Assembly: GCA_028015205.1 (NCBI GenBank)
Contig: CM051521.1
Coordinates: 87,210,513 to 87,274,512, forward strand
DNA length: 64,000 nucleotides
DNA from: Mytilisepta virgata
Lineage: Eukaryota > Mollusca > Bivalvia > Mytilida > Mytilidae
Reading direction: 5' to 3'
The translations under genes were made by a program, and so were the position numbers. Positions 1,505 to 31,650 of the stretch are shown here, piece after piece. Numbering within the stretch: position 1 is the stretch's first letter; every line of letters starts with the position of its first letter. The notes beneath the pieces are model-generated. The model was not told the origin of the DNA. It worked only from the letters and a program-made list of their open reading frames with translations, and did no database searches.

Positions 1505-1719
1505 TGTGGCACCGTTAAAGTCCACAATTCCTCTAAAGTCCACAACACCGCTAAAGTCCACAACAAATTTCCGCTAAAGTCCATAACGCCGCTAAAGTCC
1601 ACAAACTTTCCGCTAAAGTCCACAAAATGACCTCCGCTAAAGTCCACAAAAAAACGCCGTTAAAGTCCACAAGAACAAGTTCCTCTAAAGTCCACAAAAA
1701 AACGCCGTTAAAGTCCACA
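1505..1719 (+). repeat. Left terminal inverted repeat, ten TAAAGTCCACAA iterations
   Basis: Ten copies of the motif TAAAGTCCACAA (one copy has CCATAA, the last CCACAC), each preceded by CCGC, CCGT or CCTC, spaced 18-25 bp apart. Uneven spacing with strict motif conservation looks more like a set of protein-binding sites than a slipped microsatellite. The Met-Asp-Phe-Ser-Gly repeat peptide that can be read on the minus strand is only a translation of this array. Confidence 0.85.
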
Positions 1720-2584: not shown

Positions 2585-2850
2585 AACCTGTCCCAAGTCA
2601 GGAATTCAGTGGTGTCGTGTGTTATGTGTAACATATTTGTTTTTCGTTCATTTTTTGTACATAAATCAGGCCGTTAGTTTTCTCGTTTGAATTGTTTTAC
2701 ATTTGTCATTCGGGGCCTTTTATAGTTGACTATGCGGTATGGGCTTTGCTTATTGTCGAAGGCCGTACGGTGACCTATGGTTGTTAATTTCTGTGTCATT
2801 TGGTCCCCTTGTGAAGAGTTAAATCATTGGCAATCATACCACTTCTTCTT
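2585..2850 (+). repeat. Dispersed mussel repeat starting CCTGTCCCAAGTCAGG
   Basis: The block begins TGAACCTGTCCCAAGTCAGG, passes through TCGTTTGAATTGTTTTACA and TTTATAGTTGACTATGCGGT, and ends AATCATACCACTTCTTC followed by a T run. I recognise this order of blocks as a very common dispersed element in Mytilus DNA. The family assignment is from memory. Another common mussel repeat ending in the complementary motif lies at 40425-40655. It lies inside the TIR element at 1505-4485, so it is either part of that element or was inserted into it. Confidence 0.6.
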
Positions 2851-4270: not shown

Positions 4271-4485
4271 TGTGGACTTTAACGGTGTTTTTTTGTGGAC
4301 TTTAGCGGAACTTGTTCTTGTGGACTTTAACGGCGTTTTTTTGTGGACTTTAGCGGAGGTCATTTTGTGGACTTTAGCGGAAAGTTTGTGGACTTTAGCG
4401 GCGTTATGGACTTTAGCGGAAATTTGTTGTGGACTTTAGCGGTGTTGTGGACTTTAGAGGAATTGTGGACTTTAACGGTGCCACA
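4271..4485 (-). repeat. Right terminal inverted repeat, ten TTGTGGACTTTA iterations
   Basis: Reverse complement of 1505-1719 with the same order and spacing of the ten motif copies. One mismatch is seen in the innermost motif pair (AACACC-type against AACGCC-type). It is followed immediately by the ACCCAG target duplication. Confidence 0.85.
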
Positions 4486-12769: not shown

Positions 12770-14215
12770 AGCGATGTCAGTTTGTTACTTTCTCATATTC
12801 TCATGTAAAGTTATCCTTCATAAAATATACTAGTCAGAGATTCCTCTGACGTCAGATGACCCTGTTTCTCAATTGACTACCGTCAGAGATCACTCTATAT
12901 ACAAAACTGGGAAATTTGTCGACTCTGTCCAGATATTGTTAAACAGTTTTATATATTGATTTTATTTCTTGTAAATGAACTTGAGTTGAGTGCTTTTTTT
13001 ATGTCAGCTAATTACCCCTATCTTTCACAGTTTTTGTCATCACTACAGTGGTAAAAAAGAAGTCATGAAATATTTTTCATCTTTTAATGGAGTAGAATTT
13101 TAACATAATTTATATAACCTATTGTTCTGTAGATTAAACGGTCTAGATATTATATATTACTATGCTTTATTGAGCCAAGCATAATAGTGCTCAGCTGTCA
13201 ATATGAAGCTATCGTATTTAAATACTGTTCGGAGCATCCCTTTTGTGAAGATTACTGTGGTCCTTCTGCATAAATTTTTCATCTTACCTTTTTCGCAAAA
13301 TGTATCTCCTCCGTGACCAATTCATATACCTACTGTTTCTTGTCAGTTAACGTTTGGGTATGAAAGTAGGGTTTTGAGAAGGATTTTTTGTTAGAGAATG
13401 CTATTTTTATCACACAATCCTTTAAAATTTTATTAATATTCACAGCAGAATATAACAAAACATTCATTTTTATGGTAAATCTGTTATCATCATTTATGGT
13501 AAGATTTCCTTTGTTTAATTAATTAAAAGGTGACCAAATTGTTTCAATGAACTCCCAAATGGATTAGCGAATGTATACATAACACGGGATCTTTAAATAA
13601 AAAATCACACTTCTTGACCTGTATTTTACAATGTTATTCCTGAAATTGTATATAATTACAATTTTCGGAAAAGGCTAAAGACAGTTTTCCAAAATGAACA
13701 ATAAAAAATTTTAAAAAAATCGGGACTTTCCAAAGAAGAAAAGATGTATTTTATTATTAACCGGCTCCTTTAGTTTTTTTTATTTAGCAAGTTTATGCGC
13801 ACATCATTTTCTGACTGTAACAAGTAAGTTAAGAACAACGAGAAGGGAAGTTACTCTTAGTCAAAAAATGTCTTGAATTGGATCAAGAAGAAAAATCTTA
13901 ACTTGAACAAACTTACTTGTACAAGTCAGAATAATATACCATTAACTAAAGAGAGATAACTCTTCCCGGATTTTTTTTCTGACTGTTGAGAGTAAGAAAT
14001 ATTCTGACTCAAATATGTAGATCCCCTGACTGATAACAGAAAAACGTGACACTCTTGATGATGAACTTGTGATACACGTTCCAAAGAGCGTAAAACGCAT
14101 CAAAATTGTCCACAATAACGGCAAAGTCATGTCTCTTGAGTTGTAGTAAATTTACGTTAAATATAGTATCTGGTCATTGTGTTGTCAGTAGTATGTATGC
14201 GGTTTTCAGGTCGGA
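12770..14215. other. Intergenic, nothing recognised
   Basis: AT-rich sequence without a supportable gene. The block at about 13790-13990 with GTTACTCTTAG and GAGAGATAACTCTTCCCGG resembles short dispersed mussel sequence but no element borders could be drawn. Confidence 0.4.
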
Positions 14216-14218
14216 TTT

Positions 14219-14620
14219 GAGGTGGAGGTGCCGGAAGTGACGTCAACCGGAAATGACGTCACCGGAAGTCAGGTGACCGGAACCGGAAGTGATTTTTGCG
14301 CGCATGCGCAACCGGAAGTGGGTAGTTTTCCCGCCCTTTGTTGCCGGAAGTGACGCAAGTCACGTGGTAGGACCCGGATGTGTGTTCTGCGCATGTGTAG
14401 GCGGAACCGGAAGTACCCGGAAGTGGTTTGCGCGCATGCGCAACCGGAAGTAGGGTGTTTTTCCGCCATTTGTTGACGGAAGTGACGTAAGTCACGTGGT
14501 AGGACCCGGATGTGTGGTCTGCGCATGTTCGGGCGGAACCGGAAGTGGTTGGTGCAACCGGAAGTAGTGGGTTTTCTCCATTGACGGAAGTGACGCAAGT
14601 CACGGACCCGGAAGTGCCAT
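14219..14620 (+). promoter_or_regulatory. Dense ETS / CRE / NRF1 / E-box site array in about 132-bp repeats
   Basis: A GC-rich island in AT-rich surroundings. CCGGAAGT, the core of an ETS (GABP-type) site, occurs exactly 11 times (14231, 14262, 14283, 14312, 14344, 14407, 14417, 14444, 14539, 14558, 14608), with more near matches. TGACGTCA (CRE/ATF) lies at 14238 and 14254. The NRF1 palindrome GCGCATGCGCA lies at 14300-14310 and 14432-14442, with half sites at about 14398 and 14520. CACGTG (USF-type E-box) lies at 14361 and 14493. The sites fall in two full repeats and one shortened repeat with a period of about 132 bp. It ends about 25 bp before the left end of the giant palindrome and has no partner beyond the right end. 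Confidence 0.75.
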
Positions 14621-14626
14621 GCTTGA

Positions 14627-15760
14627 CCAGATTTAATTATCTCCCTTTTCCCGCACTTCTCGGTCGTCTCTGGCTCTTTCATCGGTCTGATACCCTCACT
14701 GTTATGTCGAAGTCCGAGAGTATACGAAGTACACTATTAGATTATCTCCCCTTATCCCGCTCTTTTCATTTGGGGGTGATGTTTTCTGTGAGGACCAAAG
14801 GTAGGATTGGATTATGTCCCCTTACCTCCAAGTGATGCTTGTCACCAATGGAGTGGTGTCCTTAGCAACTGCCTTAGCAACGGCGGTCCATTTCTATGAT
14901 GCACTTCGTTTCTCTTCTCTTGCTCTATCCCGCTCCTCGCTGCTCTTCTCTTGCTCCGTGCTGCTCAACGCTGCTCTGCACTGTACTCAGACCTGAAAGC
15001 ACCCTAAAGACAATCGTTTACCCTAACACTAGTACCACTTCAAATTCATAAGGGATTGAGCCAGATTGAATTATCTCCCTTTTCCCGCTCTTCTTGATCG
15101 TCTCTGGATCTTTGATTGAATTATCTCCCCTTATCCCGCTCTTTTCATTTGGGGGTGATGTTTTCTGTGAGGACCAAAGGTAGGATTGGATTATGTCCCC
15201 TTACCTCCAAGTGATGCTTGTCACCAATGGAGTGGTGTCCTTAGCAACTGCCTTAGCAACGGCGGTCCATTTCTATGATGCACTTCGTTTCTCTTCTCTT
15301 GCTCTATCCCGCTCCTCGCTGCTCTTCTCTTGCTCCGTGCTGCTCATCGCTACTCAGGCTTGTTGCTGTTCGTCGTCGCTGCTCTTCTCTTGCTCTTTGC
15401 TGCTCAACGCTGCTCTGCACTGTACTCAGACCTGAAAGCACCCTAAAGACAATCGTTTACCCTAACACTAGTACCACTTCAAATTCATAAGGGATTGAGC
15501 CAGATTGAATTATCTCCCTTTTCCCGCTCTTCTCGGTCGTCTCTGGATCTTTGATTGAATTATCTCCCCTTATCCCGCTCTTTTCATCTGTGAGTGATGT
15601 TTTCTGTGAGGACTAGGATTGGATTATGTCCCCTTACCTCAAGTTGATGCTTGTCACCGCTCAATGGAGGGGTGTCCTTAGCAACGGCGGTCTATTTCAT
15701 TGCTCTATGCTTCGCTTCTCTTCGCTTGCTCTTCGCTGCTCCATGCTGCTCATCGCTAAT
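14627..15760 (+). repeat. Left-arm 439-bp subterminal tandem repeats (3 units)
   Basis: Units begin CCAGATTGAATTATCTCCC at 15061 and 15500 (period 439), with a terminal unit starting CCAGATTTAATTATCTCCC at 14627. The terminal unit carries a unique insert of about 50 bp with GTATACGAAGTACACTATTAG and lacks about 66 bp present in the middle unit. The third unit is diverged and grades into the minisatellite. Each unit holds GCTCTTCTCTTGCTC motifs that resemble the minisatellite, so the two repeat types are related. The short hydrophobic reading frames here are repeat translations, not genes. Confidence 0.85.
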
Positions 15761-15839
15761 AATGACTATATTCACCTGCTGATTTAAGATTCTTGGGGTT
15801 ACTTGTCGGTGTTTTCGCTGCTGCTTCCGCTCCTGCTGC

Positions 15840-18160
15840 TTGTTGGTGTTCGTCATTGCTGCTCTTATCTTGTTCATCGCTGTTTTTCTCGTGCTCTTTG
15901 CTGCTCGTCGCTGTTTTTCTCTTGTTCTTTGTTGCTCATCACTGTTTTTCTCTTGCTCTATGCTGCTCATCACTGTTTTTCTCTTGTTCTTTACTGGTCG
16001 TCACTGTTTTTCTCGTACTCTTTGCTGCTCATCGCTGTTTTTCTCTTGTTCTTTACTGCTTATCGCTGTTTTTCTCTTGGTTTTTGTAGCTCGTCGCTGT
16101 TTTTCTCGTGCTCTATGCTGCTCGTCGCTGTTTTTCTCTTGTTCTTTGCTGCTCATCGCTGTTTTTCTCGTACTCTTTGCTGCTCATCACTGTTTTTCTC
16201 TTGTTCTTTGCTGCTCATCGCTGTTTTTCTCTCGTTCTTTACTGCTCATCGCTGTTTTTCTCTTGGTCTTTACTGCTTATGGCTGTTTTTCTCTCGCTCT
16301 TTACTACTCATCACTGTTTTTCTCGTACTCTTTGCTGCTCATCGCTGTTTTTCCCTCGCTCTTTGTTGATCATCACTGTTTTTCTCGTACTCTTTGCTGC
16401 TTATCGCTGTTTTTCTCTTGCTCTTTACTGCTCATCACTGTTTTTCTCTTGTTCTTTACTACTCATCGCTGTTTTTCTCTTGCTCTTTACTGCTTATGGC
16501 TGTTTTTCTCTCGCTCTTTGTTGATCATCACTGTTTTTCTCGTACTCTTTGCTGCTTATCGCTGTTTTTCTCTTGCTCTTTACTGCTCATCACTGTTTTT
16601 CTCTTGTTCTTTACGTCTCATCGCTGTTTTTCTCTTGCTCGTTACTGCTTATCGCTGTTTTTCTCTTGGTTTTTGTAGCTCATCGCTGTTTTTCTCGTGC
16701 TCTTTGCTGCTCGTCGCTGGTTTTTCTCTTGTTCTTTGTTGCTCATCACTGTTTTTCTCTTGCTCTTTACTGCTCGTCGCTGTTTTTTCTCTTGTTCTTT
16801 GTTGCTCATCACTGTTTTTCTCTTGCTCTTTACTGCTCATCGCTGTTTTTCTCTTGGTTTTTGTAGCTCATCGCTGTATTCCACGTGCTCTTTGCTGCTC
16901 ATCGCTGTTTTTCTTGTGCTCTTTGCTGCTCATCGCTGTTTTTCTCTTGGTTTTTGTAGCTCGTCGCTATTTTTCTCGTGCTGTTTACTGCTCGTCGCTG
17001 TTTTTTCTCTTGTTCTTTGTTGCTCATCACTGTTTTTCTCTTGCTCTTTACTGCTCATCACTGTTTTTCTCTTGTTCTTTACTGCTTATCGCTGTTTTTC
17101 TCTTGGTTTTTGTAGCTCATCGCTGTTTGTCTCTTGCTCTTTACTGCTTATCGCTGTTTTTCTCTCGCTCTTTGTTGCTCATCGCTGTTTTTCTCTTGGT
17201 TTTTGTTGCTCGTCACTGTTTTTCTCGTGCTGTTTACTGCTCGTCGCTGTTTTTTCTCTTGTTCTTTGTTGCTCATCACTGTTTTTCTCTTGCTCTTTAC
17301 TGCTCATCACTGTTTTTCTCTTGTTCTTTACTGCTTATCGCTGTTTTTCTCTTGGTTTTTGTAGCTCATCGCTGTTTGTCTCTTGCTCTTTACTGCTCAT
17401 CGCTGTTTTTTCTCTTGCTCTATGCTTCTCATCGCTGTTTTTCTCTTGTTCTTTGTTGCTCATCACTGTTTTTCTCTTGCTCTTTACTGCTCATCACTGT
17501 TTTTCTCTTGTTCTTTACTGGTCATCGCTGTTTTTCTCTTGCTCTTTACTGCTCATCGCTGTTTTTCTCTTGCTCTATGCTTCTCATCGCTGTTTTTTCT
17601 CTTGTTCTTTGTTGCTCATCACTGTTTGTCTCTTGCTCTTTACTGCTCATCGCTGTTTTTTCTCTTGTTCTTTACTGGTCATCGCTGTTTTTCTCTCGTT
17701 CTTTACTGCTCATCGCTGTTTTTCTCTTGCTCTTTACTGCTTATGGCTGTTTTTCTCTCGCTCTTTGTTGCTCATCACTGTTTTTCACTTGTCCTTTGTT
17801 GTTCATCGCTACTCCTTACCTTACTCGCGTGCTTATTTCGTTTTTTGGGGCTACTTGTCTCTGTTTTCGCTGCCACTACTGCTCCTGCTGCTTTTTGCTG
17901 TTCGTTATCGCTGCTCTTCTCTTGCTCATCGCTGTTTTTTCTCTTGCTCATCGCTGATCCTTTCTTGTTCTTTGCTGCTCATCCCTACTCAGGGCCTTAC
18001 TCGCGTGCTCATTTGCTCATCTCTTGCTCATCGCTGCTCACAACTGCTCTTCTCTTGCTCATTGCTGCTCATCACTGCTCATCGCTGCTCTTCTCTTGCT
18101 CTTTGCTGCTCATCCCTACTCAGGACCTTACTCGCGTGCTCATTTCGCTCCTGCTGCTGC
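15840..18160 (+). repeat. Left-arm 31-bp minisatellite, about 60 units
   Basis: The unit is GCTGTTTTTCTCTTGTTCTT followed by TGCTGCTCATC, 31 bp, with point variants and occasional 32-bp units from an added T; regular arrays run from about 15878 to 17800, then break into shorter CTGCTCAT pieces. The unit lacks stop codons in all three forward frames and is not a multiple of 3, so each frame encodes the same 31-residue Leu/Phe/Ser/Cys-rich repeat (CFSLVLCCSSLFFSCSLLL and so on). That explains three overlapping long open frames of up to 705 codons here. Nothing suggests that they are expressed. Confidence 0.9.
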
Positions 18161-18302
18161 TACACAAGGAATGGGGTTTACTGCTGATGATCGGAAGGCC
18201 ACTCGGTACTCATGTTGTCGGTTTGATTGGTAGATCAAGACTGATCGATGTGATTGTATACTGGGATATTTAACACAAACACAAATGAAACAGTTTCATA
18301 TT

Positions 18303-18818
18303 TTATTTTACAAAATCTACATCAGTCAATGTTTTAAGTTCTGGTTCTTTCTCTTCAAACAAAGGTATGATCTTCTTCAGTTCTTGCCATTCGTAAGGAC
18401 TCAGCGTTATACCTCTCTTGGTTGGCTGTAAAGTCAGTTCTCCGTTAGGCACGAAATATTTTCTGATGTGAATGATAGGATAGGGTGCTTTAATGATGAC
18501 ATAAACATCTTCTCCCAGATGATATGTCCAGTCCACCGGTTCTTTGTCCTTGATTCTGGTGATCAGGTCGTCCACCACTTCTGTAGTACTGCACAACATT
18601 TTCCACTGCATTAACGACAGGCTGACTCCGGTCTTGGTGGGCACCGTTTCACTTTCCCAAAATCTGAGATCTACTCTTTTACTGCCATTCCATTCTGTCA
18701 GCTCTGCATAACGTCCTCCACCCAGTAGTACTTTCAAAGGAATATCGGAAGCTGTCATGGCGTCTTGAACGATATCGCGCTTGGTCTGGTCTTTGGTTTT
18801 CTTTTCTTTACGAGACAT
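18303..18818 (-). CDS. Double PC4-like protein, left-arm copy
   Basis: Mirror copy of the gene at 23482-23997; the 171-residue product is the same. It has a basic N-terminus (residues 2-14) and two consecutive segments that match the PC4/SUB1 coactivator ssDNA-binding fold: about residues 29-76 (GGGRYAELTEW, a DLRFWE strand, KTGVSLSLMQW) and about 99-155 (VYVIIKA, IHIRKYF, KRGITLSPYEWQELKK). A candidate poly(A) signal overlaps the stop codon. The gene reads outward, toward the left minisatellite. Confidence 0.7.
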   Translation of the reverse strand: MSRKEKKTKDQTKRDIVQDAMTASDIPLKVLLGGGRYAELTEWNGSKRVDLRFWESETVPTKTGVSLSLMQWKMLCSTTEVVDDLITRIKDKEPVDWTYHLGEDVYVIIKAPYPIIHIRKYFVPNGELTLQPTKRGITLSPYEWQELKKIIPLFEEKEPELKTLTDVDFVK

Positions 18819-18950
18819 ATCGGCTGACTGATTCCTCTTCTTGCTGGTCTATTTATATACATATATTTGTGAAGATGGATTGGATTGGTTCTTATATTAT
18901 GAAACGTGAAACAGGATTGGCTATCTTTCCGACATCGTGATTGGTTAACT

Positions 18951-19175
18951 TCACCCGTTCCGATTGGTCGAAAATCTCGTATTTTCATTGGTCAATTCCA
19001 ACCGTTTCGATAGATCAACACGATGGTACACTGTCCAAATATGTGGCGCCCAATCCGGAAACTGCTCACAATAGGTACGAGTAAACGCCGACAATACGAT
19101 CAGTCTTCCTTGGTTCACCACACCGTCTTCGAACATGGCAGTGACGATTCTCTCGTATACTTGGAAGGGGTCCAT
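18951..19175 (-). CDS. Miniature BH1-like protein, left-arm copy
   Basis: Mirror copy of 23125-23349, 74 residues from the methionine chosen by promoter position. It carries the same FEDGVVNQGR segment that resembles a Bcl-2-family BH1 motif. Its 3' end lies under the CCAAT array of the next gene. Confidence 0.5.
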   Translation of the reverse strand: MDPFQVYERIVTAMFEDGVVNQGRLIVLSAFTRTYCEQFPDWAPHIWTVYHRVDLSKRLELTNENTRFSTNRNG

Positions 19176-19375
19176 CGTACGAATGACTTCTCTGACTATC
19201 TTCACTTCCTTTTATACATTTATGACATGAGACTACTCTGCATTGACAAACTTGTAACTGTCTACATATATACATGTATATATAGTGTTGCCAGAAGATC
19301 CCGATACCGGGGTTTTGTATCTGAGGCACTGGCAGTCCACCCGGACAGAGGAAAATACCGACAATCGTGTTCAGG

Positions 19376-19687
19376 ATGAACGAGATTACATCCGCTACCT
19401 TTTCTGATATGGTTCGCCACACATTCAACCTACAAAATACGACCTTCAAGATCAACGTGTTTGGATTTATACTGAGAAACGCAGAGACCGGAGAACTAAG
19501 ATACTTCCATTCCAGGACGGGGACGAATGTTCTCTGTCTCGATGATGTTAGATGGACATCAAAGATGGCTGCACCCATTCTCTTGCTTTTTGCTGCTCAT
19601 CGCTGTTTTTCTCTTGCTCTGCTAATGATGACCTTACCTCATTTCAGTTTTGGGGCAACTTGTCGCTGTTTTCGCCGCTGTTGCTAG
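19376..19687 (+). pseudogene. Gene fragment joined to repeat sequence, left-arm copy
   Basis: The first 50 or so codons from ATG 19376 read as ordinary protein (NEITSATFSDMVRHTF, then FKINVFGFILRNAETGELRY, then FHSRTGTNVLCLDD). After WTSKMAAP the frame runs into minisatellite-like sequence (FAAHRCFSLAL) and stops. The protein-like part recalls a segment I associate with large mobile-element or virus-like proteins of invertebrates, but that is an unverified recollection. It is opposite in strand to its neighbours. The frame has lost its continuation and is probably a captured fragment. It differs from the right copy by Thr/Ile at residue 4. Confidence 0.45.
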
Positions 19688-19689
19688 TG

Positions 19690-20090
19690 GTGGTCGATTG
19701 TCGTTAGTCAAAGATTGGATCTGTGCGAGAGCACCCTTAGATCCGGGTTATTTAAAAGTCCACTCTGCATTTATCCAGGCTTGTGACTGGCTATCATAAG
19801 ATAGGCTGCATTAATCCTGCTCAATTTTTTAAGGGCACTCTGCATTTGTCCAGGCTTGTGACTGGCTATATATATGTATAAACATATATAGGCTGCATTA
19901 CCCTCCTTCCCTTTTTTTGTTATATTTTTTTCTGTTTTTCTTTGTAATATGTTCCAATTCCTCCGTCACATAGAGTCATTGCTGTCTTCAGCTGCAGGTG
20001 GGTCGTAGTCGTTCAATACACGGTTAAGCAGATATTTTCGTTTTTCTACGGCCTAATCCCATGATTCTTTTGATTCGTAGTCTTCCTATT
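19690..20090. other. Left-arm intergenic with duplicated CTCTGCATTTRTCCAGGCTTG block
   Basis: Between the gene fragment and the acidic zinc-finger gene. CACTCTGCATTTATCCAGGC followed by TTGTGACTGGCTAT occurs twice, about 78 bp apart. The second copy runs into CTATATATATGTATAAACATATATAG, a near-palindromic AT tract that could act as a TATA element. No coding sequence is seen. Confidence 0.6.
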
Positions 20091-20101
20091 CTCTCCAGTG
20101 T

Positions 20102-20533
20102 TTAGCCGTTTTTCTTGATCTCTCTATGTACGGGGTCTTTATTTATGTCTTGATGCCAGGACACCAGTCCGAGGTAATGCTTTCGTATTTCGTCTCTGTA
20201 TGAGTCAAACATGTCTCTATATGCTGCCAAGCGTGCCTTGTCTTCTTCCATTCCGGCTTCCACTACTTCGTTTACTGTCTGTGAGTATTCCGATTGATGT
20301 ACTTGAAATGTTATGTTCAAAACGACTTCCCATAGGGACTGTTCGCAAAGCTCTTCGGAGTCTTCGTTGGATCCATGGTCACTACTTTGTTCCGATTCAT
20401 CGTTATCGGCTTCTGTGGTGGTGTCTGAAGCTGAATCACTATAGTCTGTTGAATCCTCTTCAATACCATGTGCATTCTTTTTGTGTCGCACTAGGTTAAA
20501 GTTTTGCTTGGATTGGTATCCACAGGTATACAT
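20102..20533 (-). CDS. Acidic protein with half C2H2 finger, left-arm copy
   Basis: Mirror copy of 21767-22198 (143 residues). It follows the zinc-ribbon gene in the same frame, separated from it only by the TAA at 20534-20536. The same Cys4, His17 and His22 half finger, acidic stretch and C-terminal helix are present. Confidence 0.6.
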   Translation of the reverse strand: MYTCGYQSKQNFNLVRHKKNAHGIEEDSTDYSDSASDTTTEADNDESEQSSDHGSNEDSEELCEQSLWEVVLNITFQVHQSEYSQTVNEVVEAGMEEDKARLAAYRDMFDSYRDEIRKHYLGLVSWHQDINKDPVHREIKKNG

Positions 20534-20992
20534 TTAAGACGTCTTTATTTCCTGGTAGTCGATAGCAGAATGAGTTCCGGTCGTCCTGCAAGTGCTTATA
20601 TTAGATACAGGTTCCTCAGCGGCTTGTTGATTCATACACAAGCGTTTGGCAAAGTATTCGTTTCGACATTGTTGCAGTTCAGATTTCACTTTTCTGATGA
20701 GGTCTCTTTTAAGTCTTTTCCACTCGTTGTCAATCCTTCTACATCCCTTGCAGATATTCATGTTTTTGTAGAAGTCCGCAAAGCTCTTGTTCGTTTGACA
20801 CTTTTTACATTTCTTGTTTGGATCCACTTTGTTGGGTCCTCCACTTGTGTTATCCAGCCGTTTGGTTCTCTTCACTTTGGTTAGAAGTAATTTCCTTTTC
20901 CTTTGTGGTTTTGCTTTGGTGTTAGAAAGATCCACAGGTATTAAATATCTAGCAGGAACCACTAAATCAACGAGAGGCGTTTTGGATGCCAT
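20534..20992 (-). CDS. C2C2 zinc-ribbon basic protein, left-arm copy
   Basis: Mirror copy of 21308-21766 (152 residues), differing at residue 3 (Ser here, Thr in the right arm). It carries the same CKKC-x15-CKGC zinc-binding pattern and basic patch. Read away from the central spacer. Confidence 0.65.
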   Translation of the reverse strand: MASKTPLVDLVVPARYLIPVDLSNTKAKPQRKRKLLLTKVKRTKRLDNTSGGPNKVDPNKKCKKCQTNKSFADFYKNMNICKGCRRIDNEWKRLKRDLIRKVKSELQQCRNEYFAKRLCMNQQAAEEPVSNISTCRTTGTHSAIDYQEIKTS

Positions 20993-21106
20993 TGATACGT
21001 GTGTGTTGTTTGACGGTCTTCAAACAACTGACGAAATTAAACAAAACCTCTGATTATATTTTCGTTAAAAGCTTTTCATTGGTGTCATGGTGACGAAGAT
21101 TGCTTT

Positions 21107-21193
21107 AGAGTAGGAGTGAGAATCCCACCTTCACCTCCTCAGCAGCAATAGCAACAACGAACAGCGAACTGTGAGGTCTGAATGAATAGAAAA
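21107..21193. other. Central non-palindromic spacer of the giant inverted repeat
   Basis: The stem pairs up to 21106/21194 (TGCTTT against AAAGCA). The 87 bases between do not pair with each other over any length that I can see. They contain AGCAGCAATAGCAACAACGA, which resembles the repeat-rich outer part of the arms. The stems on both sides hold CCAAT/ATTGG and TATA-like elements, so the spacer sits in the middle of a mirrored pair of outward-facing promoters. Confidence 0.85.
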
Positions 21194-21241
21194 AAAGCAA
21201 TCTTCGTCACCATGACACCAATGAAAAGCTTTTAACGAAAA

Positions 21242-21274
21242 TATAATCAGAGGTTTTGTTTAATTTCGTCAGTT
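21242..21274 (+). promoter_or_regulatory. TATA-initiator promoter of the zinc-ribbon gene
   Basis: TATAAT at 21242-21247 and TCAGTT at 21269-21274. TCAGTT fits the TCAKTY initiator consensus, with the predicted +1 A at 21271, 29 bp after the TATA start. The ATG at 21308 would have a 37-nt leader. The mirror copy lies at 21026-21058. Confidence 0.55.
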
Positions 21275-21307
21275 GTTTGAAGACCGTCAAACAACACACA
21301 CGTATCA

Positions 21308-21766
21308 ATGGCAACCAAAACGCCTCTCGTTGATTTAGTGGTTCCTGCTAGATATTTAATACCTGTGGATCTTTCTAACACCAAAGCAAAACCACAAAGG
21401 AAAAGGAAATTACTTCTAACCAAAGTGAAGAGAACCAAACGGCTGGATAACACAAGTGGAGGACCCAACAAAGTGGATCCAAACAAGAAATGTAAAAAGT
21501 GTCAAACGAACAAGAGCTTTGCGGACTTCTACAAAAACATGAATATCTGCAAGGGATGTAGAAGGATTGACAACGAGTGGAAAAGACTTAAAAGAGACCT
21601 CATCAGAAAAGTGAAATCTGAACTGCAACAATGTCGAAACGAATACTTTGCCAAACGCTTGTGTATGAATCAACAAGCCGCTGAGGAACCTGTATCTAAT
21701 ATAAGCACTTGCAGGACGACCGGAACTCATTCTGCTATCGACTACCAGGAAATAAAGACGTCTTAA
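21308..21766 (+). CDS. C2C2 zinc-ribbon basic protein, right-arm copy
   Basis: A 152-residue protein. Residues 28-45 are very basic (PQRKRKLLL, then KVKRTKR) and look like a nuclear localisation or nucleic-acid-binding patch. Cys62, Cys65, Cys81 and Cys84 (CKKC then CKGC) make a C2C2 ribbon with the FADFYK spacing seen in small zinc domains near endonucleases and in virus-like proteins. Residues 88-120 form a charged helix. The start is supported by the TATA/initiator pair at 21242-21274. The next gene follows directly in the same frame after one TAA. A DNA- or RNA-binding regulator is likely but the family is not identified. Confidence 0.65.
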   Translation: MATKTPLVDLVVPARYLIPVDLSNTKAKPQRKRKLLLTKVKRTKRLDNTSGGPNKVDPNKKCKKCQTNKSFADFYKNMNICKGCRRIDNEWKRLKRDLIRKVKSELQQCRNEYFAKRLCMNQQAAEEPVSNISTCRTTGTHSAIDYQEIKTS

Positions 21767-22198
21767 ATGTATACCTGTGGATACCAATCCAAGCAAAACT
21801 TTAACCTAGTGCGACACAAAAAGAATGCACATGGTATTGAAGAGGATTCAACAGACTATAGTGATTCAGCTTCAGACACCACCACAGAAGCCGATAACGA
21901 TGAATCGGAACAAAGTAGTGACCATGGATCCAACGAAGACTCCGAAGAGCTTTGCGAACAGTCCCTATGGGAAGTCGTTTTGAACATAACATTTCAAGTA
22001 CATCAATCGGAATACTCACAGACAGTAAACGAAGTAGTGGAAGCCGGAATGGAAGAAGACAAGGCACGCTTGGCAGCATATAGAGACATGTTTGACTCAT
22101 ACAGAGACGAAATACGAAAGCATTACCTCGGACTGGTGTCCTGGCATCAAGACATAAATAAAGACCCCGTACATAGAGAGATCAAGAAAAACGGCTAA
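21767..22198 (+). CDS. Acidic protein with half C2H2 finger, right-arm copy
   Basis: A 143-residue frame that begins at an ATG abutting the stop of the zinc-ribbon gene (TAAATG, same frame). Residues 4-22 (CGYQSKQNFNLVRHKKNAH) match the second half of a C2H2 finger, with Cys4, His17 and His22, but the first zinc-binding Cys is missing. A TGT codon lies at 21768-21770 in another frame, one base short of the usual spacing. Residues 24-62 are acidic and Ser/Thr-rich, like an activation domain; residues 90-143 are probably helical. Either the frame was damaged by a one-base loss, or the two frames are linked by readthrough or splicing. Confidence 0.6.
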   Translation: MYTCGYQSKQNFNLVRHKKNAHGIEEDSTDYSDSASDTTTEADNDESEQSSDHGSNEDSEELCEQSLWEVVLNITFQVHQSEYSQTVNEVVEAGMEEDKARLAAYRDMFDSYRDEIRKHYLGLVSWHQDINKDPVHREIKKNG

Positions 22199-22199
22199 A

Positions 22200-22610
22200 C
22201 ACTGGAGAGAATAGGAAGACTACGAATCAAAAGAATCATGGGATTAGGCCGTAGAAAAACGAAAATATCTGCTTAACCGTGTATTGAACGACTACGACCC
22301 ACCTGCAGCTGAAGACAGCAATGACTCTATGTGACGGAGGAATTGGAACATATTACAAAGAAAAACAGAAAAAAATATAACAAAAAAAGGGAAGGAGGGT
22401 AATGCAGCCTATATATGTTTATACATATATATAACCAGTCACAAGCCTGGACAAATGCAGAGTGCCCTTAAAAAATTGAGCAGGATTAATGCAGCCTATC
22501 TTATGATAGCCAGTCACAAGCTTGGATAAATGCAGAGTGGACTTTTAAATAACCCGGATCTAAGGGTGCTCTCGCACAGATCCAATCTTTGACTAACGAC
22601 AATCGACCAC
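22200..22610. other. Right-arm intergenic with duplicated block
   Basis: Mirror of 19690-20090: two copies of GCCAGTCACAAGC-TTGG-type block, and a CTATATATGTTTATACATATATATA tract. No gene seen. One substitution against the left arm (CAAGCTTGG here) removes symmetry near 22519. Confidence 0.6.
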
Positions 22611-22612
22611 CA

Positions 22613-22924
22613 CTAGCAACAGCGGCGAAAACAGCGACAAGTTGCCCCAAAACTGAAATGAGGTAAGGTCATCATTAGCAGAGCAAGAGAAAAACAGCGA
22701 TGAGCAGCAAAAAGCAAGAGAATGGGTGCAGCCATCTTTGATGTCCATCTAACATCATCGAGACAGAGAACATTCGTCCCCGTCCTGGAATGGAAGTATC
22801 TTAGTTCTCCGGTCTCTGCGTTTCTCAGTATAAATCCAAACACGTTGATCTTGAAGGTCGTATTTTGTAGGTTGAATGTGTGGCGAACCATATCAGAAAA
22901 GGTGGCGGATATAATCTCGTTCAT
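22613..22924 (-). pseudogene. Gene fragment joined to repeat sequence, right-arm copy
   Basis: Mirror of 19376-19687, starting at the ATG at 22924. Protein-like for about 60 residues, then minisatellite-like until the stop. It is antisense to a longer frame (22722-23234) that I regard as its shadow. Function unknown. Confidence 0.45.
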
Positions 22925-23083
22925 CCTGAACACGATTGTCGGTATTTTCCTCTGTCCGGGTGGACTGCCAGTGCCTCAGATACAAAACCCCGGTATCGGG
23001 ATCTTCTGGCAACACTATATATACATGTATATATGTAGACAGTTACAAGTTTGTCAATGCAGAGTAGTCTCATGTCATAAATG

Positions 23084-23119
23084 TATAAAAGGAAGTGAAG
23101 ATAGTCAGAGAAGTCATTC
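23084..23119 (+). promoter_or_regulatory. TATA-initiator promoter of the BH1-like gene
   Basis: TATAAAA at 23084-23090 and TCATTC at 23114-23119, which fits TCAKTY with +1 at 23116, 32 bp after the TATA start. This places the earlier ATG at 23095 upstream of the transcript and makes ATG 23125 the first start, with a leader of only 9 nt. Mirror copy at 19181-19216. Confidence 0.6.
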
Positions 23120-23124
23120 GTACG

Positions 23125-23349
23125 ATGGACCCCTTCCAAGTATACGAGAGAATCGTCACTGCCATGTTCGAAGACGGTGTGGTGAACCAAGGAAGACTGA
23201 TCGTATTGTCGGCGTTTACTCGTACCTATTGTGAGCAGTTTCCGGATTGGGCGCCACATATTTGGACAGTGTACCATCGTGTTGATCTATCGAAACGGTT
23301 GGAATTGACCAATGAAAATACGAGATTTTCGACCAATCGGAACGGGTGA
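23125..23349 (+). CDS. Miniature protein with BH1-like motif, right-arm copy
   Basis: A 74-residue protein from the promoter-supported start. The segment VYERIVTAMFEDGVVNQGR, followed by LIVLSAF, matches the layout of the Bcl-2-family BH1 region: helix, Phe, acidic-Asp-Gly, then Asn-x-Gly-Arg, hydrophobic residues and Phe. The usual Trp of the Asn-Trp-Gly-Arg core is Gln here. A Trp-rich PDWAPHIW segment lies where a BH2 region might follow. At 74 residues it is less than half of a normal Bcl-2 fold, so it may be a BH1-only fragment or a chance likeness. If real, a death-modulating role would fit a virus-like element. No membrane anchor is seen. Confidence 0.5.
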   Translation: MDPFQVYERIVTAMFEDGVVNQGRLIVLSAFTRTYCEQFPDWAPHIWTVYHRVDLSKRLELTNENTRFSTNRNG

Positions 23350-23421
23350 AGTTAACCAATCACGATGTCGGAAAGATAGCCAATCCTGTTTCACGTTTCA
23401 TAATATAAGAACCAATCCAAT
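23309..23421 (+). promoter_or_regulatory. Six CCAAT boxes upstream of the PC4-like gene
   Basis: CCAAT occurs on the coding strand at 23309, 23333, 23356, 23380, 23412 and 23417. The first four are 23-24 bp apart. All point the same way, and the set ends about 20 bp before the TATA box. This is the layout of a strong NF-Y-type proximal promoter. The mirror set lies at 18879-18991. Confidence 0.65.
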
Positions 23422-23440
23422 CCATCTTCACAAATATATG

Positions 23441-23474
23441 TATATAAATAGACCAGCAAGAAGAGGAATCAGTC
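23441..23474 (+). promoter_or_regulatory. TATA-initiator promoter of the PC4-like gene
   Basis: TATATAAATA at 23441-23450 and TCAGTC at 23469-23474, a perfect TCAKTY initiator with +1 at 23471, exactly 30 bp after the TATA start. The ATG follows at 23482, an 11-nt leader. Mirror copy at 18826-18859. Confidence 0.7.
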
Positions 23475-23481
23475 AGCCGAT

Positions 23482-23997
23482 ATGTCTCGTAAAGAAAAGA
23501 AAACCAAAGACCAGACCAAGCGCGATATCGTTCAAGACGCCATGACAGCTTCCGATATTCCTTTGAAAGTACTACTGGGTGGAGGACGTTATGCAGAGCT
23601 GACAGAATGGAATGGCAGTAAAAGAGTAGATCTCAGATTTTGGGAAAGTGAAACGGTGCCCACCAAGACCGGAGTCAGCCTGTCGTTAATGCAGTGGAAA
23701 ATGTTGTGCAGTACTACAGAAGTGGTGGACGACCTGATCACCAGAATCAAGGACAAAGAACCGGTGGACTGGACATATCATCTGGGAGAAGATGTTTATG
23801 TCATCATTAAAGCACCCTATCCTATCATTCACATCAGAAAATATTTCGTGCCTAACGGAGAACTGACTTTACAGCCAACCAAGAGAGGTATAACGCTGAG
23901 TCCTTACGAATGGCAAGAACTGAAGAAGATCATACCTTTGTTTGAAGAGAAAGAACCAGAACTTAAAACATTGACTGATGTAGATTTTGTAAAATAA
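23482..23997 (+). CDS. Double PC4-like (SUB1-type) protein, right-arm copy
   Basis: A 171-residue protein. Residues 2-14 are basic and lysine-rich, like the regulatory head of PC4. Two PC4-like units follow: residues 29-76 (GGGRYAELTEW, VDLRFWE, then KTGVSLSLMQWKML) and 99-155 (GEDVYVIIKA, IIHIRKYF, then TKRGITLSPYEWQELKKI). PC4 is normally one such unit that dimerises to bind single-stranded DNA; a fused pair would make the dimer in one chain. The second unit is closer to the family, with the K-x-G-[IV]-[ST]-L-x-x-x-[QE]-W signature. Roles could be transcription of the element or protection of single-stranded replication intermediates. Confidence 0.75.
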   Translation: MSRKEKKTKDQTKRDIVQDAMTASDIPLKVLLGGGRYAELTEWNGSKRVDLRFWESETVPTKTGVSLSLMQWKMLCSTTEVVDDLITRIKDKEPVDWTYHLGEDVYVIIKAPYPIIHIRKYFVPNGELTLQPTKRGITLSPYEWQELKKIIPLFEEKEPELKTLTDVDFVK

Positions 23998-23998
23998 A
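23993..23998 (+). terminator. Candidate poly(A) signal overlapping the PC4-like stop codon
   Basis: AATAAA at 23993-23998 contains the TAA stop (23995-23997). A GTTTCATTTGTGTTTGTGTT stretch follows, which would do as a downstream GU-rich element. Overlap of stop and poly(A) signal is typical of compact viral-style genes. The mirror copy is at 18302-18307. Confidence 0.6.
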
Positions 23999-24139
23999 AT
24001 ATGAAACTGTTTCATTTGTGTTTGTGTTAAATATCCCAGTATACAATCACATCGATCAGTCTTGATCTACCAATCAAACCGACAACATGAGTACCGAGTG
24101 GCCTTCCGATCATCAGCAGTAAACCCCATTCCTTGTGTA

Positions 24140-26560
24140 GCAGCAGCAGGAGCGAAATGAGCACGCGAGTAAGGTCCTGAGTAGGGATGAGCAGCAAAGA
24201 GCAAGAGAAGAGCAGCGATGAGCAGTGATGAGCAGCAATGAGCAAGAGAAGAGCAGTTGTGAGCAGCGATGAGCAAGAGACGAGCAAATGAGCACGCGAG
24301 TAAGGCCCTGAGTAGGGATGAGCAGCAAAGAACAAGAAAGGATCAGCGATGAGCAAGAGAAAAAACAGCAATGAGCACGAGAAGAGCAGCGATAACGAAC
24401 AGCAAAAAGCAGCAGGAGCAGTAGTGGCAGCGAAAACAGAGACAAGTAGCCCCAAAAAACGAAATAAGCACGCGAGTAAGGTAAGGAGTAGCGATGAACA
24501 ACAAAGGACAAGAGAAAAACAGTGATGAGCAACAAAGAGCGAGAGAAAAACAGCCATAAGCAGTAAAGAGCAAGAGAAAAACAGCGATGAGCAGTAAAGA
24601 ACGAGAGAAAAACAGCGATGACCAGTAAAGAACAAGAGAAAAAACAGCGATGAGCAGTAAAGAGCAAGAGACAAACAGTGATGAGCAACAAAGAACAAGA
24701 GAAAAAACAGCGATGAGAAGCATAGAGCAAGAGAAAAACAGCGATGAGCAGTAAAGAGCAAGAGAAAAACAGCGATGACCAGTAAAGAACAAGAGAAAAA
24801 CAGTGATGAGCAGTAAAGAGCAAGAGAAAAACAGTGATGAGCAACAAAGAACAAGAGAAAAACAGCGATGAGAAGCATAGAGCAAGAGAAAAAACAGCGA
24901 TGAGCAGTAAAGAGCAAGAGACAAACAGCGATGAGCTACAAAAACCAAGAGAAAAACAGCGATAAGCAGTAAAGAACAAGAGAAAAACAGTGATGAGCAG
25001 TAAAGAGCAAGAGAAAAACAGTGATGAGCAACAAAGAACAAGAGAAAAAACAGCGACGAGCAGTAAACAGCACGAGAAAAACAGTGACGAGCAACAAAAA
25101 CCAAGAGAAAAACAGCGATGAGCAACAAAGAGCGAGAGAAAAACAGCGATAAGCAGTAAAGAGCAAGAGACAAACAGCGATGAGCTACAAAAACTAAGAG
25201 AAAAACAGCGATAAGCAGTAAAGAACAAGAGAAAAACAGTGATGAGCAGTAAAGAACAAGAGAAAAACAGTGATGAGCAACAAAGAACAAGAGAAAGAAC
25301 AGCGACGAGCAGTAAACAGCACGAGAAAAATAGCGACGAGCTACAAAAACCAAGAGAAAAACAGCGATGAGCAGCAAAGAGCACGAGAAAAACAGCGATG
25401 AGCAGCAAAGAGCACGTGGAATACAGCGATGAGCTACAAAAACCAAGAGAAAAACAGCGATGAGCAGTAAAGAGCAAGAGAAAAACAGTGATGAGCAGTA
25501 AAGAGCAAGAGAAAAACAGTGATGAGCAACAAAGAACAAGAGAAAAACCAGCGACGAGCAGCAAAGAGCACGAGAAAAACAGCGATGAGCTACAAAAACC
25601 AAGAGAAAAACAGCGATAAGCAGTAACGAGCAAGAGAAAAACAGCGATGAGACGTAAAGAACAAGAGAAAAACAGTGATGAGCAGTAAAGAGCAAGAGAA
25701 AAACAGCGATAAGCAGCAAAGAGTACGAGAAAAACAGTGATGATCAACAAAGAGCGAGAGAAAAACAGCCATAAGCAGTAAAGAGCAAGAGAAAAACAGC
25801 GATGAGTAGTAAAGAACAAGAGAAAAACAGTGATGAGCAGTAAAGAGCAAGAGAAAAACAGCGATAAGCAGCAAAGAGTACGAGAAAAACAGTGATGATC
25901 AACAAAGAGCGAGGGAAAAACAGCGATGAGCAGCAAAGAGTACGAGAAAAACAGTGATGAGTAGTAAAGAGCGAGAGAAAAACAGCCATAAGCAGTAAAG
26001 ACCAAGAGAAAAACAGCGATGAGCAGTAAAGAACGAGAGAAAAACAGCGATGAGCAGCAAAGAACAAGAGAAAAACAGTGATGAGCAGCAAAGAGTACGA
26101 GAAAAACAGCGATGAGCAGCAAAGAACAAGAGAAAAACAGCGACGAGCAGCATAGAGCACGAGAAAAACAGCGACGAGCAGCATAGAGCACGAGAAAAAC
26201 AGCGACGAGCTACAAAAACAGCGACGAGCAGCATAGAGCACGAGAAAAACAGCGACGAGCAGCATAGAGCACGAGAAAAACAGCGACGAGCTACAAAAAC
26301 CAAGAGAAAAACAGCGATAAGCAGTAAAGAACAAGAGAAAAACAGCGATGAGCAGCAAAGAGTACGAGAAAAACAGTGACGACCAGTAAAGAACAAGAGA
26401 AAAACAGTGATGAGCAGCATAGAGCAAGAGAAAAACAGTGATGAGCAACAAAGAACAAGAGAAAAACAGCGACGAGCAGCAAAGAGCACGAGAAAAACAG
26501 CGATGAACAAGATAAGAGCAGCAATGACGAACACCAACAAGCAGCAGGAGCGGAAGCAGC
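24140..26560 (-). repeat. Right-arm 31-bp minisatellite
   Basis: Reverse complement of the left-arm array, with the motif AGAGAAAAACAGCGATGAGC repeated about every 31 bp. It differs from the left array by indels of whole units and by point changes, for example a duplicated CGACGAGCAGCATAGAGCA segment at about 26140-26290. The minus strand is open in three frames (up to 692 codons) for the same arithmetic reason as in the left arm. Confidence 0.9.
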
Positions 26561-26599
26561 AGCGAAAACACCGACAAGTAACCCCAAGAATCTTAAATC

Positions 26600-27794
26600 A
26601 GCAGGTGAATATAGTCATTATTAGCGATGAGCAGCATGGAGCAGCGAAGAGCAAGCGAAGAGAAGCGAAGCATAGAGCAATGAAATAGACCGCCGTTGCT
26701 AAGGACACCCCTCCATTGAGCGGTGACAAGCATCAACTTGAGGTAAGGGGACATAATCCAATCCTAGTCCTCACAGAAAACATCACTCACAGATGAAAAG
26801 AGCGGGATAAGGGGAGATAATTCAATCAAAGATCCAGAGACGACCGAGAAGAGCGGGAAAAGGGAGATAATTCAATCTGGCTCAATCCCTTATGAATTTG
26901 AAGTGGTACTAGTGTTAGGGTAAACGATTGTCTTTAGGGTGCTTTCAGGTCTGAGTACAGTGCAGAGCAGCGTTGAGCAGCAAAGAGCAAGAGAAGAGCA
27001 GCGATGACGAACAGCAACAAGCCTGAGTAGCGTTGAGCAGCACGGAGCAAGAGAAGAGCAGCGAGGAGCGGGATAGAGCAAGAGAAGAGAAACGAAGTGC
27101 ATCATAGAAATGGACCGCCGTTGCTAAGGCAGTTGCTAAGGACACCACTCCATTGGTGACAAGCATCACTTGGAGGTAAGGGGACATAATCCAATCCTAC
27201 CTTTGGTCCTCACAGAAAACATCACCCCCAAATGAAAAGAGCGGGATAAGGGGAGATAATTCAATCAAAGATCCAGAGACGATCGAGAAGAGCGGGAAAA
27301 GGGAGATAATTCAATCTGGCTCAATCCCTTATGAATTTGAAGTGGTACTAGTGTTAGGGTAAACGATTGTCTTTAGGGTGCTTTCAGGTCTGAGTACAGT
27401 GCAGAGCAGCGTTGAGCAGCAAAGAGCAAGAGAAGAGCAGCGATGACGAACAGCAACAAGCCTGAGTAGCGTTGAGCAGCACGGAGCAAGAGAAGAGCAG
27501 CGAGGAGCGGGATAGAGCAAGAGAAGAGAAACGAAGTGCATCATAGAAATGGACCGCCGTTGCTAAGGCAGTTGCTAAGGACACCACTCCATTGGTGACA
27601 AGCATCACTTGGAGGTAAGGGGACATAATCCAATCCTACCTTTGGTCCTCACAGAAAACATCACCCCCAAATGAAAAGAGCGGGATAAGGGGAGATAATC
27701 CAATAGTGTACCTCGTATACTCTCGGACTTCGACATAACAGTGAGGTATCAGACCGATGAAAGAGCCAGAGACAACCGAGAAGTGCGGGAAAAG
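26600..27794 (-). repeat. Right-arm 439-bp subterminal tandem repeats
   Basis: Mirror image of the left-arm repeats: the block ending GATAATTCAATCTGG recurs at 26880 and 27319, a period of 439 bp. The two full units are nearly identical. The outermost unit stops at GTGCGGGAAAAG (27783-27794), about 20 bp short of what the left end retains. Confidence 0.85.
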
Positions 27795-29394: not shown

Positions 29395-29587
29395 AAATCT
29401 GTGGAAAATAAAAATCTGTTAAAAGAGAGAGCTACCGAATATAAAAGGGAGCTTCAAAAGAGTTATTTTTTATATCAAGATAAATTTGCGCAGGAATTGC
29501 GAACTCATTCAAAATATGATACAAAGGCGTTTTGGAGAACTTTAAACAAGTTTTCAGGAACTCCGAAACACAACACCCCTATTCCCA

Positions 29588-31650
29588 TTGACATTTCATG
29601 ATTATTTCAAAAAATTAAATTGCATTAATGATGATGATGAAGATGATGGTGATGAGAATGATGATGATATTGATTTGAATGCAATTTGTGATGACCCAGT
29701 TCTCAATTCTATATTGAATGGGGAGATCACGCGTACTGAGATAGTTGATGCTATCAATAGATTTAAGAATAATAAATCCCCTGGTCTCGATAATATTTTG
29801 AATGAGTATTTCAAAAACTTACCTCCTGGCTTTTTAGATATTATATCCAAGATCTTCAACCTTGTGTTAGATACGGGTATTATTCCTGAAGAATGGACTG
29901 TGTGTATAATCAAGCCCGTGTATAAGAACAAGGGAGATAATATGGATCCTGATAATTACCGAGCGATTACTCTGATCAGCTGCTTCGGAAAACTATTTAC
30001 GTCGATCTTGAATTCTAGATTGACATCATTTTCAGATGAGATATCATTAGTTTCTAAAAATCAAGCTGGCTTTCGTAAAGGCCATTCTACTACAGATAAC
30101 ATTTTTATATTGAATTCCATTGTCTCATTATATCAACCTCATTCTAAAAAGTTATTCTGTGCTTTCATTGATTTCCGCAAGGCGTTTGACACCGTGTGGA
30201 GAACTGGCTTGTGGAAAAAATTTGCAAAGCAGTGGAATAAAGGGAAAGATATTAGCTGTCATTTATAGAATGTATGTTAATATAAAGTCATGTGTTCAAT
30301 ATAACAGTGAACAATCGGATTTTTTCCCATGTTTGACAGGTGTCAGACAGGGAGAAAACTTGTCTCCATTTTTATTTTCTATTTTTCTTAATGATTTAGA
30401 AATCTTCCTAGAAGGATCAGAGTGTTCGCCCTTGGATCTAGTAAAACATAGAAGTGAACAAAATTTAGATGTTATACTTAAGATATTTGTCATTTTGTAT
30501 GCAGACGATACCGTTTTATTGGCTGATACAAAAGAAGGAATGCTACACGCACTAAATGTTTTTCAAATGTATTGTAACAATTGGAGACTACAAGTAAATA
30601 CTAATAAGACAAACATTTTGATTTTTTCTAAGCGTAAGTTTAATGTCAACTTCGAGTTGAAACTAGAAGATAAAGTTTTAGAGATAGTTGACTCTTTCTC
30701 TTATCTGGGATTACTTTTTAAGTACAATGGGAATTATGCTGATGCTAGAAAAAAGCTGATAAATCAAGCACAGAGATCTTTGTTTAGTATTTATAGTAAC
30801 ATTAGAAACCAAAATATTCCTGTTGATTTACAACTGAAGCTTTTTGATTCCATGGTTGAACCCATACTTCTATATGGGTCAGAAATTTGGGCTTATGAAA
30901 ATGTAAAAGTATTGAACAAGTTCACCTTGCTTTTTGTAAACGTATTTTGAAAGTTAGATCGACGACACCAAATTACATGGTTTACGGTGAACTTGGCAGG
31001 TATCCATTGGAAATTCGCATCAAAACTAGGATGATTTCTTTTTGGTGTAAACTTGTTAATACAAATGAGAAACTGAGTAGTTTGGTTTACTCATTACTGC
31101 ATAATTTGAAGGTAAACGGATCTGAGTGTTATAAATGGTTAAACTATATTGAGAGTATTTTTAATGAAACAGGGCTAAGTTATATATTTACAAATAAGAT
31201 AGGTTATATTGATGTGAGATATGTAACACAAATTTTACAAGATCAATATATCCAAAGATGGTTCAGTGATATTAATAACACTTCTAGAGGTGAATTTTAT
31301 TCTTTATTCATTTAGAGAATTATTTATTGAAGATACCAGAACGAAGCAGAATCTGGATAACAAAATTACGAACTTCAAATTTGCACATCCCAGTTGAAAC
31401 TGGTAGATCGTCCAATATAGCCCGACAAGATAGATTATGTACTTTATGTAATAGACGCATTGGTGATGAATTCCATATTCTATTTCTTTGTTCAAATGAT
31501 TCAGTTCTCAATCTTAGAGAAACATTTTTTCCTAACTACTACGTAACATATCCGAATACTGATAAAATGGCAAGAATGCCTATGTATTGCAATGTAGATT
31601 TTTACAAAAGACTGGCTGTTTATGTTACAAAAGTTAATGCATTATTTTGA
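29588..31650 (+). pseudogene. LINE reverse transcriptase and C-terminal domain, frameshifted
   Basis: Recognisable reverse-transcriptase blocks: NYRAITLISCFGKLF, NQAGFRKGHSTTDN, AFIDFRKAFDTVW, LTGVRQGENLSPFLFSIFLN and the catalytic YADD box at 30498-30509, then a thumb region with SYLGLLF. Frameshifts lie near 30200-30260 and 30930-30950, and a further stop near 31315. The C-terminal part (31327-31650) has CTLC, then GDEFHILFLC, a Cys/His motif usual at the end of such proteins. The element encoded copying of its own RNA at the target site; this copy is dead. Confidence 0.85.

Follow-up and report, generated by a model that had tools for sequence, protein, structure and literature searches.

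What is the giant palindrome in the genome of the mussel Mytilisepta virgata that carries a compact gene set twice, in mirror image, and how did its halves come to be so alike? It lies in a 64,000-nucleotide (nt) stretch of contig CM051521.1 (GenBank assembly GCA_028015205.1, positions 87,210,513 to 87,274,512, forward strand), which was analyzed whole and is called the window below, with positions counted from its first letter. An earlier reading of the letters alone (the original prediction) had proposed an undescribed virus-like or non-autonomous class of element, to be set aside if it proved to be a fold-back assembly artefact or a host gene family. We find that the window copy is one member of a large multi-copy mobile family. 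The reading we prefer, at a probability of roughly two in three, is that the palindrome represents a non-autonomous element, self-complementary (palindromic) in structure and bearing Maverick/Polinton ends, which is copied via a helper polymerase and snapback.

Two inverted arms of 4323 nt each (16784–21106 and 21194–25516) are 100% complementary, with 87 nt between them, and outer pieces of the arms (14934–16166 with 26214–27446, and 16058–16787 with 25481–26210) pair at 99%. The open frames are mirrored between the two arms, so that the predicted near-perfect palindrome with mirrored gene sets is confirmed as real. The palindromic copy in the window is 13.6 kb long and somewhat damaged: it begins at 14187 and has lost both the right tip and the centre to deletion.

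To get a view of the family, searches were run against the source genome assembly (1.03 Gb, 109 contigs). A DNA search with 2.9 kb of one arm, in which the best 25 of 2753 candidates were scored and counts are lower bounds, gave at least 46 long matches to the gene block at at least 24 loci. A mirrored minus-then-plus pair was present at 22 of the 24, and one of the two unpaired loci, L012, retains the start of a second arm. When the 191-aa zinc finger of locus L042 was used in a protein search, all of the best 150 of 2833 candidates that were scored matched (at least 150 copies); 45 neighbouring pairs lay no more than 12 kb apart, 44 of them in minus/plus orientation. Searching with the tip (best 40 of 3732 candidates scored) revealed further elements, with paired tips 9.5–16.6 kb apart. 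Six of these were partly fetched (L039/L040, L041, L042, L049, L050 and L051); L039/L040, L050 and L051 are gene-bearing palindromes, and L049 is palindromic around a zinc-finger pair, its centre not being among the 14 longest matches listed.

The element starts with AGTAGTAT, and its other end is the reverse complement of this sequence. Ends were sought at 13 loci; both tips were in hand at nine, and in the other four they were not both within the fetched stretches. AGTAGT..ACTACT termini were found at all nine evaluable loci, flanked by a 6-bp target duplication that was perfect in eight (TAGATG, GGCGAA, ACCATA, AATATA, TTCACG, CACGTA, TACGTA and CTCCTA) and matched at 5 of 6 positions in one. 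From their tip coordinates, these nine elements span 9.5–16.2 kb. The tip pair listed for C5 is a spurious internal match. In the available portion of a survey of vertebrate Mavericks (PMC8097293), the commonest end motif is AGT twice, intact elements have 6-bp duplications, and the AGT repeat is said to permit the jumping-back step of protein-primed replication. A second source, likewise available in part (PMC10045372), gives 6 bp as the length of the Polinton target duplication and lists IS3EU and GingerRoot as also making 6-bp duplications, with TA..TA or TG..CA termini. The termini found here are not of the latter kinds; they follow the (AGT)2//(ACT)2 form which, as an alternative to (AG)3//(CT)3 and together with 6-bp duplications, marks Mavericks/Polintons. 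Because of the end motif and the 6-bp duplications, we affiliate the family with this group. The idea of a non-autonomous mobile class survives as a multi-copy family, although not as an unaffiliated one. The original limits of the window copy have to be moved as well. Its left end is the AGTAGT at 14187 rather than 14645, since the intervening GC-rich stretch (about 14209–14620) occurs at both ends of three compared copies and is part of the element, and 27794, taken for the right end, is a truncation point beyond which the tip is lost.

The 87 nt at the middle of the window copy, first read as a spacer, are arm sequence left by a central deletion. In nine other copies having both anchors, the intact centre measures 736–1079 bp, and the arms run on through degenerate telomere-like repeats into a central hairpin. 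The repeats are in CCCTAA orientation, with the C-rich strand running towards the middle. The hairpin is imperfect; one example has stems of 14, 8 and 11 bp with mismatches between them and a 16-nt loop. The loop, TGTTTGCCTCATGTTT, is asymmetric and nearly constant, with one variant, in 13 loci matched by a pattern that required the inner stem but not the loop; the pattern was not found in L004, and the loop is out of view where fetched stretches stop at or before the centre. It occurs in both orientations among loci, for which random insertion direction alone suffices. At L006 (C16:1131134), the centre passes straight into the 31-bp minisatellite of the opposite side, most of one arm being deleted.

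Comparing the arms outward from the loop was possible at 10 of the 13 loci tried (L004, L041 and L045 were unusable). Mismatches made up 51 of 449 positions in the first 45 bp (11.4%), 24 of 3912 at 45–500 bp and 12 of 3867 at 500–1000 bp. Eight of the ten loci have a mismatch near the loop, and the stems of L013 and L019 are fully paired; away from the loop, the arms of a locus differ by 0.3–0.6%. An imperfect hairpin with kept mismatches, as expected of a hairpin-ended replicon, is thus found here as the centre of an integrated dimer.

Over the gene block, 1–11 positions per ~2.8 kb separate the arms of one locus (11 loci, one compared over 2.1 kb), against 5–167 between blocks from different loci. 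The partner arm was the nearest sequence in 9 of the 11 two-arm loci; C7a and C81, the two where it was not, have very close relatives. The small number of arm differences and the nearness of the partner arm lead us to conclude that homogenization of the arms took place within each element, either before it inserted or afterwards. The features of the window copy are as follows.

14181–14186, no strand: GTTGTC, the candidate left-hand 6-bp target duplication, placed by the AGTAGT end of other copies; right partner lost with the right tip
14187–14206, plus strand: left tip, AGTAGTATGT..., with the Maverick (AGT)2 end motif (as in the available portion of PMC8097293)
14209–14620, plus strand: GC-rich subterminal repeats (CCGGAAGTGACGTCA and 132-bp units), in the left arm only here and in both arms of L021–L026
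14645–15870, plus strand: left subterminal region of 439-bp repeat units
15874–17810, plus strand: 31-bp minisatellite, ~62 units, with strong strand asymmetry
18303–18818, minus strand: tandem PC4-domain gene, left copy, 171 aa
19376–19687, plus strand: antisense frame, N-terminal ...INVFGFILRNAETGELRYFH; idea of a Maverick polymerase N terminus not confirmed
20102–20533, minus strand: C2H2 zinc-finger/acidic gene, left copy, 143 aa (191 aa in the L042 form)
20534–20992, minus strand: zinc-ribbon gene, left copy, 152 aa
21107–21193, no strand: residual centre, arm sequence remaining after loss of the telomere-like repeats and hairpin
21308–21766, plus strand: zinc-ribbon gene, right copy
21767–22198, plus strand: zinc-finger/acidic gene, right copy, its ATG directly after the zinc-ribbon stop
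23482–23997, plus strand: tandem PC4-domain gene, right copy
24490–26506, minus strand: 31-bp minisatellite of the right arm, ~65 units
26695–27704, minus strand: 439-bp repeat units of the right arm
27794, no strand: right limit of homology; right tip and GC-rich repeats gone

The minisatellite (15783–18273 and its mirror) contains long overlapping frames on one strand, up to 724 codons from stop to stop, and has an AT skew of about -0.78. Elsewhere in the window, two inverted 224-bp arms (98%) of tandem CCGCTAAAGTCCACAA units lie 2.5 kb apart at 1505–4485, perhaps another element with repeat-built inverted ends, and tandem arrays of 155- and 296-bp units occupy 46487–47664. Two overlapping frames at 29546–30950 resemble what we take to be a broken reverse transcriptase of the non-LTR (long terminal repeat) kind, and a 151-aa frame on the minus strand (61444–61899) is presumably a fragment of another retroelement protein, which it resembles.

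Three of the four genes originally proposed, those for the zinc ribbon, the zinc finger and the double PC4 protein, were confirmed as frames, and PC4 alone passes its Pfam cut-off (PF02229, E 3.2e-19, two stretches). An AlphaFold2 model of the PC4 protein (18 sequences, mean predicted local distance difference test score (pLDDT) 70; the other four models, 43–58) predicts two beta-sheet-plus-helix repeats, and with this model Foldseek retrieved two-repeat PUR-alpha and single PC4 domains. No relative was confirmed in IMG/VR contigs, whether the short-pattern scan used the PC4 protein, its alignment, a degenerate pattern or a peptide of 57 aa; a large protein collection contained 173 tandem-PC4 relatives at E ≤1e-3, given there with no genomic context. 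Four of the relatives (P0007, P0045, P0046 and P0060) are on contigs of 0.4–1.0 Mb, perhaps eukaryotic chromosomes. The tandem-PC4 family may be widespread. For the zinc finger, which stops early in the window subfamily compared with the 191-aa form, the protein search found six relatives; for the zinc ribbon, none of six candidates was confirmed as a relative, and the protein weakly resembles phage endonuclease VII (best E 0.0035).

The fourth proposed gene, a BH1-like frame, is not supported. Its ratio of nonsynonymous to synonymous differences (pN/pS) was 1.2–1.6 in the three comparisons made with the other subfamily and 0.29 in a single close one, with no defined value in five more. The frame overlaps another and is cut short in L039, L040 and L051; it is nonetheless open in all nine copies checked. 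The antisense frame at 19376–19687 looked like the N terminus of a Maverick polymerase, a reading that gained no confirmation: the regions upstream in two lineages of polymerase (L064; L065/L066) did not match the peptide, the best hit having an E of 0.006 over 15 residues.

When copies are compared with the C4/C10 subfamily, differences concentrate in the PC4 gene (~90 of ~140), with a pN/pS of 0.29–0.30; over all comparisons between subfamilies the gene is constrained (pN/pS 0.28–0.30). The zinc finger has a pN/pS of 0.41 between more distant copies, and the zinc ribbon values of 0.26–0.84 in close comparisons with few changes. In nine compared copies, the zinc ribbon is open in all, the zinc finger is interrupted in two and PC4 in one. 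Strongly different PC4 allele classes occur on otherwise similar elements (L021–L026, L039/L040, L050 and L051 versus the window), which suggests exchange between subfamilies.

The remark in the original prediction that no gene could be tied to replication or integration stands, as judged by frame lengths and Pfam scans and with the integrase family itself not searched. The window copy has no non-repeat stop-to-stop frame above 181 aa, and hence none long enough for a protein-primed DNA polymerase B; no frame above 200 aa was seen in three other central stretches. Judged from the frame lengths of the window copy alone, a retroviral-type integrase was not seen either; capsid, ATPase and protease genes were looked for by frame lengths and by Pfam scans of eight proteins from the window, L040 and L042, and none was seen. 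With the core genes absent from the copies read, the family is not an autonomous Maverick/Polinton member. Polymerase genes do exist elsewhere in the genome. A PF03175 search, in which the best 91 of 461 candidates were scored (at least 117 match rows), found uninterrupted frames of 1374–1445 aa and 1654–1765 aa. These long frames, among them those at C14:24660155 and C33:849777, are of at least two kinds (~1400 and ~1750 aa), with uninterrupted copies, several of them equal-scoring, and are perhaps young Maverick-like elements. After 26 rows representing neighbouring pieces of listed genes had been dropped, 91 polymerase positions were compared with 154 element positions, one per locus; none of the 91 lay within 29 kb of an element. 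The examined palindromes therefore do not carry a PF03175 polymerase.

The palindrome, the family, the AGTAGT ends, the 6-bp duplications, the hairpin centre and the likeness of the arms except beside the loop are the observations from which we infer how such an element replicates. A helper Maverick polymerase would begin copying from one or other of the AGTAGT ends, primed by a protein and using the jumping-back step. The displaced strand would fold onto itself, giving a half-length hairpin with one closed and one open end, and priming at the open end would unfold it and regenerate the dimer. Differences between arms would be erased in the folded strand, except near the loop, and the tandem PC4 protein may bind single strands or loops during the cycle. 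A helper integrase would then insert the dimer with a 6-bp duplication, after which the chromosomal centre and tips would be deleted piecemeal, as in the window copy. A more specific version, which we offer tentatively and rate at a little below even chances, is that of a Maverick satellite lineage which has lost every virus gene and persists as self-complementary DNA. Single-stranded, it would be a half-length hairpin; integrated, a palindromic dimer. It would encode a single-strand-binding protein of its own and have two unlike ends, one a closed hairpin with telomere-like repeats, the other a protein-primed Maverick end.

Several points weigh against this helper-and-snapback account. Gene conversion after insertion, the main rival on this point, could also produce arm identity, and the loop mismatches might merely mark a failure of conversion near a turn. 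Sixty of the 150 scored zinc-finger copies (the best 150 of 2833 candidates) have no scored partner, and two elements, L041 and L042, lack symmetry, only one side of each having the gene block. The zinc ribbon shows no evidence of purifying selection between subfamilies (pN/pS 0.96–0.98). A helper that shares these ends was not found, the regions flanking the polymerase genes being unread and integrase genes not searched.

Could the element instead be a foldback or long terminal-inverted-repeat DNA transposon moved by another transposase, its AGTAGT end and 6-bp duplication coincidental and its arms alike by chromosomal gene conversion? Foldback elements with long inverted repeats, such as Tetris, are known. 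There is no obvious reason, however, why conversion should pass over the 45 bp beside the loop, which are mismatched in 8 of 10 loci. Although IS3EU and GingerRoot also make 6-bp duplications, their TA..TA or TG..CA termini (available portion of PMC10045372) are not the AGTAGT..ACTACT of the nine evaluable loci, and a constrained PC4 gene also speaks against a foldback transposon, which we consider unlikely. Another rival is a hairpin-ended virus or satellite virus that circulates, replicates in the manner of a parvovirus or poxvirus and had a duplex replication intermediate caught in the genome. In its favour, the hairpin is imperfect and keeps its mismatches, and the loop is asymmetric. The compact gene set, including a tandem PC4 with its 173 context-free relatives, would fit such a virus, but no nickase, Rep or capsid-sized frame is present, the short-pattern scans confirmed no relative in IMG/VR contigs, and random insertion direction would in any case give both orientations of the loop. 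We judge a viral origin of this kind to be quite improbable.

Assembly fold-backs typically look like this, one long palindrome around a short spacer, but the resemblance carries little weight against 22 mirrored loci, private arm differences in all 11 two-arm loci measured, target duplications that span the whole dimer and an asymmetric loop common to the loci; an artefact is extremely improbable. A host gene family fares no better, a mirrored, target-duplicated block being none. Telomere-like repeats near the centre might recall chromosomal palindromes formed by host breakage and fusion with no mobility. However, telomere–telomere fusion is ruled out because the repeat orientation is opposite, the C-rich strand pointing towards the centre, and the target duplications and dozens of loci contradict such an origin, to which we give hardly any credence.

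If the satellite lineage is real, protein-primed and hairpin-end replication are joined in one animal mobile element, and the family would offer a test bed for the two working together, its preserved loop mismatches recording in readable form how the copying works. There is a growing tendency to regard Mavericks as integrated viruses, and palindromic satellites of them would show defective self-complementary genomes becoming stable genomic lineages. A palindromic Maverick-ended family would also explain some of the long palindromes in animal chromosomes. In the literature searched (titles and abstract openings, with Repbase and subscription papers outside), no palindromic, self-complementary Maverick/Polinton is described.

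Compared with known systems, the family shares with Mavericks/Polintons the (AGT)2//(ACT)2 ends, the 6-bp duplications and overall size, intact vertebrate elements measuring 12.7–24.6 kb in the available portion of PMC8097293. It differs in that no polymerase, integrase, ATPase, protease or capsid gene is seen (the integrase family was not searched), in inverted repeats of several kb, covering nearly the whole element, against 46–1,447 bp in Mavericks as far as the available source text goes, and in a hairpin centre with telomere-like repeats. Foldback transposons of the Tetris type are said to combine long inverted repeats with a link to tandem repeats, as here; Maverick-type ends and duplications and protein genes in the arms set the present family apart. 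Parvoviruses and poxviruses have imperfect hairpin ends with kept mismatches, as here, but in our elements the hairpin is central in an integrated dimer whose outer ends bear the Maverick motif. Defective self-complementary genomes are documented in stocks of adeno-associated virus (AAV) and known also for adenovirus. Symmetric adenovirus recombinants (SYREC), left-end palindromes of a protein-primed linear virus, arose in infected cultures and need adenovirus, whereas the families described here are chromosomal. For replication, AAV snapback genomes use Rep and helper functions of adenovirus (PMC8235507, available in part); in that portion of the record they have self-complementary halves, depend on a helper, replicate and form dimers, as proposed here, but they are encapsidated viral subgenomes with Rep-dependent inverted terminal repeats and not an integrated, Maverick-ended family. 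They are the nearest documented precedent for the proposed cycle.

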